50,244 nucleotides of DNA, from the NCBI GenBank assembly GCA_014381505.1, contig JACNLK010000047.1, positions 1 to 50,244 on the forward strand, read 5' to 3'. Positions 41,946 through 47,640 of this stretch are shown piece after piece. The notes beneath the pieces are model-generated. The model was not told where the DNA came from and did no database searches. It worked only from the letters and a program-made list of their open reading frames with translations. Made by a program: the position numbers and the translations under genes. The DNA is from Candidatus Desulfatifera sulfidica. Lineage in GTDB: Bacteria; Desulfobacterota; Desulfobulbia; Desulfobulbales; Desulfocapsaceae. Each line of letters opens with the position of its first letter. Position 1 is the stretch's first letter.

Positions 41946-42782
41946 CTATGGATTTTTCACTTCTCTCACTGCAATGGACTCTGCCTGGCCAAGTATTCCG
42001 TGATTACCGGCGATGTGTCCGATTTCACGCCAGTCACGCCCAAGGAGATCACAGCCATAGGCATCTATGGCGACCGGATCGAAGGAGGCTGCCAGCCGGT
42101 TCACCGGTGGGTCACAATGCGGGCCCCAGAGGTGGGCCTCTGCCATGCCTATACTGGCGTCAAGCAGGGTGAAGTCCGGGGTTCTGTAGCGGTTGAGATC
42201 AAGGATTGCAGCCTGAATATTGTGATGAAACCCTGATTTTCCCCAACTGCCACCCTGCTGATAATGGCTGGGCGGTGCACAACCCATCATATTTTTCATG
42301 GTCAGTGTTATGCCGGCCAGGCTGTGGGCCTTGAGAACAGGGACCGAGAGGAGAAAGACCTCATCAAGCAGGCTGGGCAGGTGCATTTCAGGCCAGCGCG
42401 TGCAGTCATCTCTCTGGTGATGGCTGAGAGGCTCACAGTTCAGGTCGATCAGTTCAAGACCGGCCCTGCTGGCCAGGTCGCTGTATCCCAGGGCGTCAAA
42501 GACATGAAAGGTGTCGTAGTCAAGACTGCCGGTTCCTTCGCCGATCAGGATTGTGCTGTCTGGCAGATTCAGGCGCAGATAGCGGACCAGCTCTGTAATG
42601 AGACTGACCGGAGTGGTAATCGGTGGAGCCAGATTTTCAACCAGATTGGGCTTGATAAGGATGCGCTGGTCTTTGTTAATAGCGGTGATCAGCCCTGCTG
42701 CATCAAGCAGAGGTGGCAGAGTTGAACGGAAGTTGATGAGTTGCGCGCTGTGGATCAGCCCTGAGTCATGTTTGTGGGTCAT
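41946..42782 (-). CDS. DUF362 family protein
   Basis: The 278-residue protein has the DUF362 marks: ILIKPNLVENLAPPITTPVS, ILIGEGTGSLDYDTFHVF, LLSVPVLKAHSLAGITLTMK (with NMMG after it) and FTLLDASIGM. The ferredoxin domain attached in some family members is missing. DUF362 proteins are often found beside anaerobic enzymes and have an unclear redox or assembly role. The start overlaps the stop of the Fe-S ATPase gene (ATGA), so the two proteins are probably made together. Confidence 0.85.
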   Translation of the reverse strand: MTHKHDSGLIHSAQLINFRSTLPPLLDAAGLITAINKDQRILIKPNLVENLAPPITTPVSLITELVRYLRLNLPDSTILIGEGTGSLDYDTFHVFDALGYSDLASRAGLELIDLNCEPLSHHQRDDCTRWPEMHLPSLLDEVFLLSVPVLKAHSLAGITLTMKNMMGCAPPSHYQQGGSWGKSGFHHNIQAAILDLNRYRTPDFTLLDASIGMAEAHLWGPHCDPPVNRLAASFDPVAIDAYGCDLLGRDWREIGHIAGNHGILGQAESIAVREVKNP

Positions 42783-43435
42783 GGCGAATTTTCAATGGGT
42801 TCCGGGTCAAGCAAGCCGTGGAGAAGGACGAATCGACCCAGGGGGATGACTTGACAAGGGAAAGAATTAACAAACAGTGGGTTGTCACAGAGTCCACCAG
42901 AGAGATACAAGGTTTCTGGACGGCCTGCAAAATCGTGGGCGTTGAGGGCAATGCCTTTTACGAATTTGGCCACGGCTTCAGCCTCGCTGCTGCCGTTGAC
43001 CACGGCATCGAAGATATGGCTCATCCCCAGGACTCCACAGGTGATTGAAAATGAGCTTTTGGGGACGGTCAGGCGGGAAAAGTCCAGCTCGTAATACCGT
43101 TCCAGCAGTTCGATTGTAAATCCCATGGAAGCACCACATTCGGCGTTCCAGCCCATGTCCTGCACTTTCCCTCTCGAGTAGCGAACAAACTTGATGTCCC
43201 GGCTGCCGCAATCGAGCAGAGTGTAATTGTCCTCCTTGATCAGGCGCATGCCCCCCCGGGCCAGGGCCGTGAGCTCATTGACATAGTGCGTGCAATGTCT
43301 GCGCCCGTTGTGGCCGGTGCCTCGATCAACCCGCAGGTCTGGATCGAGTTCTCGGCTGGCAATCAGGCGAGGTCCGCCGGGGAGCTCCGGGTTCCAGAGT
43401 TTACAGTATGAGGTGCCGAAGTCAGCAAGTAGCAT
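42779..43435 (-). CDS. BadF/HgdC-type ATPase with probable bridging [4Fe-4S] cluster
   Basis: The 218-residue ASKHA-fold protein has phosphate loops LLADFGTSYCKLW and YTLLDCGSRDIKF and the adenosine loop LYLSGGLCDNP. Two further Cys are placed as in HgdC, the ATP-dependent activator of 2-hydroxyacyl-CoA dehydratase: one in WNAECGASMGFTIELLE, the other in FSITCGVLGMSHIFD. In HgdC these hold one [4Fe-4S] cluster between two subunits. It is somewhat shorter than HgdC (about 260). No dehydratase subunits are seen here. It lies between a Cys-rich unknown gene and a DUF362 gene. Confidence 0.78.
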   Translation of the reverse strand: MLLADFGTSYCKLWNPELPGGPRLIASRELDPDLRVDRGTGHNGRRHCTHYVNELTALARGGMRLIKEDNYTLLDCGSRDIKFVRYSRGKVQDMGWNAECGASMGFTIELLERYYELDFSRLTVPKSSFSITCGVLGMSHIFDAVVNGSSEAEAVAKFVKGIALNAHDFAGRPETLYLSGGLCDNPLFVNSFPCQVIPLGRFVLLHGLLDPEPIENSP

Positions 43436-43480
43436 GGTCAAGTTGAGAGTTCAAGGTGGTCATAATAAATGTGCTGGTGG

Positions 43481-44230
43481 TTACAGGCATCCGGACAGCT
43501 CGAGGAAGGCCTGGATTTTGGCCCGGGCGCTGCTGCCGGCGGTCACATCGCAGTCCACGTAGAGCCCGTGCGGATGGATGCTGGCCAGATGGCGGGCCAT
43601 GGCTGTCTTGGCGCAGAAGGATTGGGCAAAAAACACTGTGGGGATATTGGGGTTACAGTATTCTTCCAGGGCGAAATTGGCGGGAGTTTTGTTCTCCATG
43701 CAGCGGCTCCAGCCGTAGACGTGAGTCGTGTCCGGAAAAGGTTCGAGTAAAGTGAAGTCGCGTGGTGGCACACCCCAGAATCCCGCACTGGGCGTGCAGG
43801 ACGGCAGGCTGGGGTGTTGGAGCGGTGATTGGATGGATCGGGTGATTGCTGTCATTTTGCTCATCATATCCATCCGGGTTCGGCACAGCGGGCTACCAAA
43901 ATCATGATGGTCGAGGTTGCGGGTGGTAATGATCTCTGTACCTGGCAGATGCGCCTGGAGGATCGTTGCGGTATGCAGAGCGCAATCGCATTTGCCTGGA
44001 CCCACATCAATATAAATACGGTCAAGATTGAGTTCCAGGCTGTTCACCACTACGGTTCTGAGGATGGCACAGTAGACCCGGGGGAGACAGGATGAGGCCT
44101 GATCGATACCGATTTTGACCAGTGGTTCATCCAGATCAAAGAGTTCAATGTCCTGATCAGCCAGTTCCTGAAAGATGGTCAGCGGTGGTACGCCCACGAT
44201 ACCGATTCTGGGTTTGCTTTCTGTTTTCAT
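43481..44230 (-). CDS. Cys-rich protein of unknown function
   Basis: This 249-residue soluble protein has about eleven Cys. Notable stretches are PRIGIVGVPPLTIFQELADQ, DRIYIDVGPGKCDCALHTAT, GWSRCMENKTPANFALEEYC and TVFFAQSFCAKTAMARHLAS. A Rossmann-like alternation of strands and helices is plausible. I do not recognise a family; a distant relation to 2-hydroxyacyl-CoA dehydratase subunits is a guess based on the ATPase beside it. I start it at the ATG at 44230, 5 bases after lptG, because the longer frame runs into lptG. Confidence 0.6.
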   Translation of the reverse strand: MKTESKPRIGIVGVPPLTIFQELADQDIELFDLDEPLVKIGIDQASSCLPRVYCAILRTVVVNSLELNLDRIYIDVGPGKCDCALHTATILQAHLPGTEIITTRNLDHHDFGSPLCRTRMDMMSKMTAITRSIQSPLQHPSLPSCTPSAGFWGVPPRDFTLLEPFPDTTHVYGWSRCMENKTPANFALEEYCNPNIPTVFFAQSFCAKTAMARHLASIHPHGLYVDCDVTAGSSARAKIQAFLELSGCL

Positions 44231-44235
44231 TGGCT

Positions 44236-45315
44236 TCAGCGATCGGCACGTCGGAGGAGGAAAATACCACCTGCTCCAAAGAGAATGTGGATGGACAAGG
44301 CTGCAACGGTTGGGCTCAGATAGGTGGCCCGAGCCAGGGTCTGGAGACCGCCCCAAGCCCCCCAGGCAAAGAAGGCGAGCAGGCAACTGGCCGGGATAGC
44401 AACAGACAGGTCACGTCCCCATCTGTTGAAGGCCGTCAGCAGAACAGGGAGTCCGAGCAGAAGCATGGGCAGGCCGAGCAGAGGATAGGAGAGACGACTG
44501 TAAAATTCAGTCCAGGCTCGGGCTGATTCTGTCTTGCTTTGCTGTTTGCGCGCTTCGTGGAAGAGTTGTACAGGGGATTGTTCAGAGGCCTTGTATTTGG
44601 GGATGAAGAAGTAATCCGGTTTTTCGGGGAGATCAAAACGTTGTTCCGTAAACAGTGTGGTCAGATAGGTGCTGCCGGTCCATGTCTGAATCTGCCCGTT
44701 CTTGAGTAGCCAGTGGTCGTCCTGCCACTGTGCTTGCTTGGCGGTGACCAGTTCTTTGAGCTGATAGGGGTCGCTCCAGGTGGAATAGGAAAAGTTGGTG
44801 AAGTTGAATTTCCTGGGGTGCGGCCTGACAAAGGAGTAAAAGCCTTCAGCCCCCTGTGAATAATAGCGGCCGTTGCGCAGAGTACCCTTGGGGATAGAGC
44901 CTTTGACCTCTTCATACCAGATGGTGTTGGTGGCACTGGTGGATGTGGGCAGGAGCCATTGGCCCATGGCCAGGAAGAGGAGGGTGATGATCAGGCCGCC
45001 AAAAATGATTGGTCGGGTGATTCGGGCAAGGGGCAGGCCACCGGCCTTCAGGGCAGTCAGCTCATGGTTGTGGTTGAGCAGACCGAGCGTGATGACCCCG
45101 GCCAGGAGGATGAGGATGGGGCTGAGCTGGTTGAGGATAAAAGGAAGATTCAGGGCGAAAAACTTAAGGACCAGCCCCATTGATTTGCCCTTTTCCATGA
45201 AGTTGTCGACTTTTTCAAAGAAATCGATGAGCAGGTAGACGGCGGTGAAGCCGGACGCAGCCAGGAAAAAGGTGCGCAGGTATTGTCCGAGGATATAGCG
45301 GCTGAGTAATGACAT
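44236..45315 (-). CDS. lptG: LptF/LptG-family lipopolysaccharide export permease
   Basis: The 359-residue protein has the family start LLSRYILGQYLRTFFLAASG, three more N-terminal helices including NHNHELTALKAGGLPLARI, a periplasmic beta-jellyroll domain (about residues 125-265) and two C-terminal helices with SYPLLGLPMLLLGLPV. It takes lipopolysaccharide from the inner membrane together with LptB, LptF and LptC. Its usual partner lptF is not adjacent. It lies between crcB (15 bases upstream) and the Cys-rich unknown gene (5 bases downstream). Confidence 0.88.
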   Translation of the reverse strand: MSLLSRYILGQYLRTFFLAASGFTAVYLLIDFFEKVDNFMEKGKSMGLVLKFFALNLPFILNQLSPILILLAGVITLGLLNHNHELTALKAGGLPLARITRPIIFGGLIITLLFLAMGQWLLPTSTSATNTIWYEEVKGSIPKGTLRNGRYYSQGAEGFYSFVRPHPRKFNFTNFSYSTWSDPYQLKELVTAKQAQWQDDHWLLKNGQIQTWTGSTYLTTLFTEQRFDLPEKPDYFFIPKYKASEQSPVQLFHEARKQQSKTESARAWTEFYSRLSYPLLGLPMLLLGLPVLLTAFNRWGRDLSVAIPASCLLAFFAWGAWGGLQTLARATYLSPTVAALSIHILFGAGGIFLLRRADR

Positions 45316-46020: not shown

Positions 46021-47640
46021 ATGTCATCGTTTGTCAGGTCGTTAGCCATTGTGGCTGATCCCCCAAGTCTGGCTGATAACAGTGGTGATCTGGATCGTTT
46101 GCGGCGGGTCGTGCGTGAGACATTGGCCGATGGCCTGCCGGTTGATTTCCCCCTGACTCACGTGGGTGCTTTGTGTCGTCGTTTTCGAAAGGCCGGATTT
46201 CAGGGAACAGCCCTGGTCAATGACCTGGGTGATCGCTGGGTGGTTGCTGATTTCATGGGCGAAGCACCTGATTTATTGGCCGGGGTGGCTCTGGATCTGG
46301 GAACAACCCATCTTGAGGCCACTTTGATTGATATGGGTAATGGCAGGGTCCTGGCTCGGGCTGACCGGGTGAATGATCAGATTGAATACGGGGTTGATAT
46401 CCTGAGTCGCATCCATTTTGCGACGGCGGCCCGCAGATTGGAGAAAAATCTGGATCCGGATTTTGTTGACCCGGGTCTTGTGACCCTGCAGCGGGTGGTT
46501 CGTGATTGCATCAACGCCTTGCTGGCTGATCTGGCTGCGGCTGCAGGTCTTGAACCCGAGAATGTTCGTGCTTTGGCTGTTTCCGGCAATACCACCATGG
46601 TTCATTTTTTTCTCGGTCTTGATCCCTACCACCTCTGTCGTGAACCCTATATCCCCATGATCAATCAGCCGGGAATTGTCACTGCAAAAGAGTTGGGCCT
46701 GTCTCTGCATCCTGCAGCACCCATCTGGATCATGCCCTCCATCGGCAGTTATTTTGGTGGTGATCTGATTTCAGGAATCCTGGCATCTGGCCTGTCTGAG
46801 GGCGATGAAACCAGGATGCTGATTGATGTCGGGACGAATGCCGAAGTTGTTGTGGGCAACCGGGAATGGCTCATTGCCTGTGCGGGAGCAGCAGGGCCGG
46901 CACTGGAAGGGGGCGTGGCTCGGATGGGTATGCGTGCAGGGCCCGGGGCCATTGATCGGGTGAATATTCATCCTGTCAGTCTGGAATTCACTTACACCAC
47001 CATAGCCAATGCGCCGGCTGTGGGGATATGTGGTTCGGGCCTCATCGACCTGGTGGCAGCCCTCTATTTGAGCCGGGTGATTGATATTCAAGGTCGCCTC
47101 CGTGATCCGGCACTGGAGAAAAATGGGGAGCGAGCAGCATTTATGGCTGCTCGAATTGTTGAAAATGAAGGCCAGCGGGCTTTTGTCATAGTACCGGCTA
47201 CCGAGGCGGCCGGCGATGAACCAATCCTTCTTGAACAGCTGGATCTTGATGCCCTGATGCGCTCCAAGGCGGCCATGTATGCCATCCTCACCACGCTTCT
47301 GGGGCAGGTGGGGCTGGAGTTTGATGACTTGCATGAGATCTGTGTGGCCGGGGCCTTTGGCGGTCATATTGACCCGCTGCGGGCCGTAACATTGGGCATG
47401 CTCCCGGATCTTGATCTTTCGGTTTATCGAGCTATCGGTAACTCATCATTGCATGGCGCCGAGCTGGCCCTCTGTGATCAGGCGTCTCGGCAGGCCTGTT
47501 CTCGGATTGTTGCCCAAATCACCTATGTGGAGTTGAATGTTAATCAGGAGTTTATGATTCGTTTTTCCGGCTCCCGGTTTATTCCCCATACTGATCCATC
47601 TCTTTTTCCTTCTGTACCTTTTTATAACGATAACAGTTGA
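46021..47640 (+). CDS. RACo-like ASKHA protein without the ferredoxin domain
   Basis: The 539-residue protein matches the large C-terminal part of the family that reactivates corrinoid enzymes (RACo/RamA-type, DUF4445). Marks are GVALDLGTTHLEATLIDM, RADRVNDQIEYGVDILSRI, LIDVGTNAEVVVGN, ACAGAAGPALEGGV, GICGSGLIDLVAALY and CVAGAFGGHID. The [2Fe-2S] domain that normally occupies the first 90 or so residues is missing; the protein starts in the linker region. It could use ATP for conformational work but needs another electron donor. A GAGGAG site supports the start at 46021. No corrinoid protein or methyltransferase gene is beside it. Confidence 0.85.
   Translation: MSSFVRSLAIVADPPSLADNSGDLDRLRRVVRETLADGLPVDFPLTHVGALCRRFRKAGFQGTALVNDLGDRWVVADFMGEAPDLLAGVALDLGTTHLEATLIDMGNGRVLARADRVNDQIEYGVDILSRIHFATAARRLEKNLDPDFVDPGLVTLQRVVRDCINALLADLAAAAGLEPENVRALAVSGNTTMVHFFLGLDPYHLCREPYIPMINQPGIVTAKELGLSLHPAAPIWIMPSIGSYFGGDLISGILASGLSEGDETRMLIDVGTNAEVVVGNREWLIACAGAAGPALEGGVARMGMRAGPGAIDRVNIHPVSLEFTYTTIANAPAVGICGSGLIDLVAALYLSRVIDIQGRLRDPALEKNGERAAFMAARIVENEGQRAFVIVPATEAAGDEPILLEQLDLDALMRSKAAMYAILTTLLGQVGLEFDDLHEICVAGAFGGHIDPLRAVTLGMLPDLDLSVYRAIGNSSLHGAELALCDQASRQACSRIVAQITYVELNVNQEFMIRFSGSRFIPHTDPSLFPSVPFYNDNS

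Follow-up and report, generated by a model that had tools for sequence, protein, structure and literature searches.

A minimal two-gene system of Desulfobacterota with a probable role in ATP-gated, low-potential electron transfer

The window, by which we mean the whole stretch of DNA that was analyzed, comprises 50,244 nucleotides of the genome of Candidatus Desulfatifera sulfidica (contig JACNLK010000047.1). On its minus strand lie three genes in a row, P1 (43481..44230, 249 aa), P2 (42779..43435, 218 aa) and P3 (41946..42782, 278 aa), with 45 bases between P1 and P2 (43436-43480) and an ATGA overlap between P2 and P3; open reading frames and coordinates confirm the arrangement first reported for this locus in an initial annotation made from the sequence. 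P3 is a DUF362 protein, as indicated by its PF04015 match, and an occasional neighbor of the other two genes. Upstream on the same strand is an lptF-like permease gene (44236..45315), which we regard as context outside the system. Only 5 bases separate the lptF stop codon from the P1 start, and P1 thus belongs to an lptF-P1-P2(-P3) run. The permease gene is the usual upstream neighbor in the order and lies immediately upstream in 65/71 named loci; in two other classes it does not adjoin P1-P2. Comparison with the sister genome indicates purifying selection on all three genes (dN/dS ~0.10 for P1, ~0.09 for P2 and ~0.16 for P3). Rfam returned no match at the P1-P2 locus, where a promoter scan gave hits at chance level and a terminator scan fewer than expected by chance, and a plasmid search found no match.

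HgdC-type ATPases push electrons to very low potential for an acceptor protein. P2 is a short ATPase of the HgdC/DCCP-R type by both its sequence and its predicted structure. Its scores fall below the curated cut-offs of two activase family models (30.2 bits vs. 125.4 for TIGR00241 and 19.7 bits vs. 31.5 for PF01869, BcrAD_BadFG), and its sequence matches in the PDB are structures of DCCP-R, HgdC and HadI. The P2 model (pLDDT 92) finds DCCP-R as its best PDB match (7yyl_E, E 4e-13), and all ten of its top PDB matches are activases. The nucleotide-binding loops are intact (DFGTSxxK, LDCGSRDxK and LSGGL motifs), and together with the activase fold matches they bear out the ASKHA loops that the initial annotation had read in this gene. 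It had also noted two cysteines at the cluster-bridging positions of HgdC. These are C100 (codon 43136..43138, minus strand) and C133 (43037..43039, minus strand), which align with the first and second cysteine of the HgdC pair that bridges a [4Fe-4S] cluster in the homodimer, and they are the only strictly invariant cysteines of P2 among 41 relatives from three classes. P2 therefore shares its ASKHA loops and its two putative cluster-bridging cysteines with HgdC, HadI and the TIGR00241 activases, but it is shorter than these and under the cut-offs given above; DCCP-R is ~25 aa longer.

P1 had been described as a protein of no known family, and P1 itself indeed has no Pfam or NCBIfam match, nor did its sequence profile find a PDB chain at E<0.5. 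The description is nonetheless superseded by its fold and by weak matches of its relatives to PF06050, which together place P1 in the DCCP/benzoyl-CoA reductase (BCR) family. PF06050, the 2-hydroxyglutaryl-CoA dehydratase D-component, matches 5/23 P1 relatives, the best at 19.3 bits (E 9e-4), where the gathering score is 28.4 bits. The confident P1 model (pLDDT 88, pTM 0.85), a structure prediction of the 249-residue protein alone as the initial annotation had proposed, matches five PDB entries at E<=0.001, and all are DCCP/BCR subunits at a probability of 1.00: DCCP (7yyl, 6eno and 7yzm), the 3-methylbenzoyl-CoA reductase MbdON (9g87) and the benzoyl-CoA reductase BzdNO (8s02). TM-scores are moderate (0.51–0.57 by query) because ~170 template residues have no counterpart in P1. 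Profile comparison (HHalign) with PF06050 proteins from related genomes aligned P1 LPRVYCAILR with LPRNxCxLIKS and GKCDCALH with ETTCDGKKK (E 0.0008–0.002) and, in the C-terminal halves, SFCAKT...KIQAFLEL with FCxxY...RIEAFxE; the probabilities of these alignments were low (10–25%) despite the small E-values. On open reading frame, translation, model, fold matches and profile alignment, P1 is best described as a shrunken relative of the dehydratase/reductase (DCCP/BzdN-like) subunits. The earlier statement that the usual dehydratase subunits are absent accordingly stands in part: we found no full-length PF06050 protein elsewhere in the source genome, but P1 is itself a reduced relative of such subunits.

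The top matches of P1 and P2, obtained in independent searches, are chains of one solved complex, 7YYL. With DCCP the best structural match for P1 and DCCP-R the best for P2, both proteins reach the same complex first. The DCCP/DCCP-R system (6ENO, 7YYL) also resembles the P1-P2 pair in its composition, in that an acceptor protein is served by an HgdC-type ATPase of its own. P1 is nevertheless far shorter than DCCP (249 vs. ~421 aa). Its model shows the N- and C-terminal alpha/beta domains typical of the family, each with four strands, connected through a short linker. The middle helical domain, which in this family helps form the CoA channel (PMC11971306), is missing. Its absence makes a CoA ester an improbable target of P1, for which a small molecule or a metal cofactor bound to a protein would be the better fit. 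It also bears on whether P1-P2 could be a conventional BCR/HAD enzyme that has a trimmed subunit and acts as a small dehydratase or reductase of CoA esters. All characterized catabolic relatives act on CoA esters, and P1 shares the fold of both alpha/beta domains with BzdN/BzdO and MbdN/MbdO, yet P1-P2 differs from those class I subunits in having one short subunit type only, no CoA-channel domain and no CoA pathway gene as a constant neighbor. We consider a conventional CoA-ester enzyme improbable.

P1 contains 11 cysteines, in agreement with the earlier count of about eleven. Scattered and unconserved cysteines in a structure of this protein had been named as evidence against the proposed system; most of the eleven are indeed not conserved, but four (C54, C81, C177 and C206) are invariant among 40 relatives, and C116 and C145 are frequent without being invariant. 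C54 (codon 44069..44071, minus strand), C81 (43988..43990, minus strand) and C206 (43613..43615, minus strand) align with C73, C100 and C327 of BzdN. Comparison with C95, C128 and C380 of BzdO, following the published ligand numbering of BzdN and BzdO, assigns these three residues to putative ligand positions of a proximal [4Fe-4S] cluster (PMC11971306). C177 (43700..43702, minus strand) sits in the C-terminal domain, in the connection from strand 2 to strand 3, a region that in BzdN contains C263 and C293. Of these two possible equivalents, C293 is favored by the profile alignment and C263 by the position of C177 immediately behind strand 2. The position of BzdN C36 is lost in P1 (GxPP), as is the cysteine of the DCCP N-domain motif FCxYxPEE. 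P1 hence departs from the six-cysteine set that holds the [8Fe-9S] cluster of DCCP, with four invariant cysteines, none at C36 and one for C263/C293. With four cluster cysteines instead of six, a full double cubane ([8Fe-9S]) in P1 appears unlikely by homology, although the frequency of C116 and C145 leaves it some room. The simplest reading is that three or four cysteines bind a single [4Fe-4S] cluster.

The two genes are tightly linked across genomes. In a phylum sample of 394 Desulfobacterota genomes, matches to P1 and strong matches to P2 fall in the identical 25. The pair is adjacent in 27/28 loci of one set and in 77/78 named loci of a larger one, the named relatives coming from a contig scan with patterns tuned to close relatives, and each set has a single break, that of the sister genome. 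Within the window's own family, P1 and P2 have been lost jointly several times, with five changes on the lptF tree, at least three of which are forced by well-supported branches. In one genome without P1 (G015), a weak match to P2 (E 9e-7) lies inside a 1,449-aa open frame that we take to be another activase-like protein. In-frame stops in the P2 genes of two genomes (G024 and G025) fall at or past the normal C-terminus, as judged by ORF lengths. Distances among P1 and P2 sequences are also still correlated once lptF (partial r 0.41, permutation p 0.007) or the DHH gene (partial r 0.69, p 0.001) has been controlled for.

In the sister genome (G001, L029:2443-5319), two same-strand genes have been inserted between P1 and P2; by eye, we named them as a glycosyltransferase family 2-like gene and an ArnT-like membrane glycosyltransferase gene. 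Another bin (G032) carries two P1-P2 pairs (L040 and L054, on contigs C33 and C27), through either duplication or contamination (4%).

The initial annotation had proposed that all three genes form one redox system, in which the DUF362 protein would be a third component, whether substrate, carrier or partner, and had named a conserved neighborhood of the three across genomes as a test. Such a neighborhood is seen for P1 and P2 and not for P3. The ATGA overlap of P2 and P3 in the window and the adjacency of P3 in 6/28 loci and 9/69 named loci are consistent with a three-gene system, but DUF362 is distributed independently of the pair. An orthologue with 55–78% identity occurs in 20/38 genomes without association to P1: both are present in 14 genomes, P1 only in 13, DUF362 only in 6 and neither in 5, so that the proposed third component is missing from 13 genomes with the pair and persists in 6 without it. 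In five P1-less genomes (G003, G009, G011, G013 and G017), DUF362 remains directly behind lptF, which looks like a clean loss of the pair from an ancestral lptF-P1-P2-DUF362 order. We give a three-gene system very little credence, as the independent distribution of DUF362 speaks strongly against it, and regard DUF362 as a neighbor at the locus and not a component. The functional unit is two genes, P1 and P2.

Among the sampled genomes of the order, P1-P2 is found in almost all that fall outside the window's family, G114 being the one exception, and in more than half of those within it. Two small classes carry the pair in all genomes sampled (5/5 and 8/8). The carriers thus come from three classes, all of anaerobic sulfur bacteria. 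Named carriers include Desulfoprunum benzoelyticum, Desulfofustis glycolicus and Desulfocapsa, as well as the cable bacteria Electronema and Electrothrix. Gene neighbors differ among the three lineages, and the constant part is P1-P2 only. In one of the other classes the neighbors are lysS-lolC-lolD-bamA-like genes and in the second they are two metallo-beta-lactamase-fold genes (both named by eye). Flanking genes resembling metallo-beta-lactamase-fold hydrolases (again named by eye) recur in several genomes of the most divergent class (L152, L153 and L154) and are a possible hint at function there.

In the window, a RACo/AcsV-like corrinoid activation gene (46021-47640) lies divergent from crcB-lptF-P1-P2. 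It is a conserved neighbor in many families of the order, and none was seen beside P1-P2 in the two other classes. Its divergent position in the window and in many relatives is what speaks for a reductive activation of CODH/ACS, or of its corrinoid protein, by P1-P2. The distribution of CdhC does not support such a role: CdhC is present in eight genomes that lack P1 (G002, G003, G009, G011, G013, G014, G015 and G019) and absent from one that carries P1-P2 (G035). CODH/ACS is thus not an obligatory target of the pair, and we regard this candidate as extremely unlikely.

Conservation of P1-P2 in the manner of core genes suggests a housekeeping reaction or the activation of an enzyme. It would also fit a role in maturation, in which P1 would be a metal-cluster or sulfur carrier or scaffold, active in TudS-like sulfur transfer or in cluster maturation, and P2 would drive the reduction or release of a cluster instead of a catalytic reduction. 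Like P1, TudS (4-thiouridine-monophosphate desulfidase) is a size-reduced member of the fold family; it is, however, a single-domain protein whose description names no ATPase partner (PMC11971306), whereas P1 retains both domains with invariant cysteines in each and is strictly paired with an ATPase. TudS is also absent among the significant fold matches of P1. A carrier or scaffold function is in our view unlikely, if less so than the alternatives above.

We consider it likely that P1-P2 is a minimal two-component, ATP-gated, low-potential electron-transfer system, whose target is probably not a CoA compound. The proposal builds on homology, cysteine conservation, strict pairing and joint loss, and from these we infer the clusters, the dimer, the transfer of electrons and the target. 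P2 would probably form a dimer in which C100 and C133 of both subunits bind one shared [4Fe-4S] cluster, and, driven by the binding and hydrolysis of ATP, would expel a low-potential electron. An Fe-S cluster located between the two alpha/beta domains of P1 would accept this electron, with C54, C81 and C206 as putative ligands at the proximal site and C177 as a possible fourth, and P1 would pass it on for the reduction of the target. That the cysteine-rich protein is the acceptor of an HgdC-type ATPase was the central suggestion of the initial annotation, and it gains support from the match of the predicted P1 fold to the known acceptors DCCP, BzdNO and MbdON and from the inseparability of P1 and P2 across genomes.

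Our literature search, with many subscription papers beyond its reach, found no paper on the P1-P2 pair. To our knowledge, only a few enzymes, most of them large, use ATP to exceed the potential of normal biological reductants, and we know of no established physiological role for their archetype DCCP. A further-reaching reading, to which we give slightly less than an even chance when all its parts are taken together, is that P1-P2 is an ATP-driven reductase or reductive activase of a class not described before. Its acceptor would be an unusually small two-domain, four-cysteine protein of the DCCP/BCR line, its target a small molecule or a protein-bound metal cofactor and no CoA compound, and its function a core one in Desulfobulbales, cable bacteria included, and in two further classes of Desulfobacterota. 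That P1 and P2 are core genes in a whole order of sulfur bacteria and always occur together in the phylum sample implies a so far unnamed reaction. Being small and simple, the pair would be a tractable model for the working and evolution of ATP-gated electron transfer.
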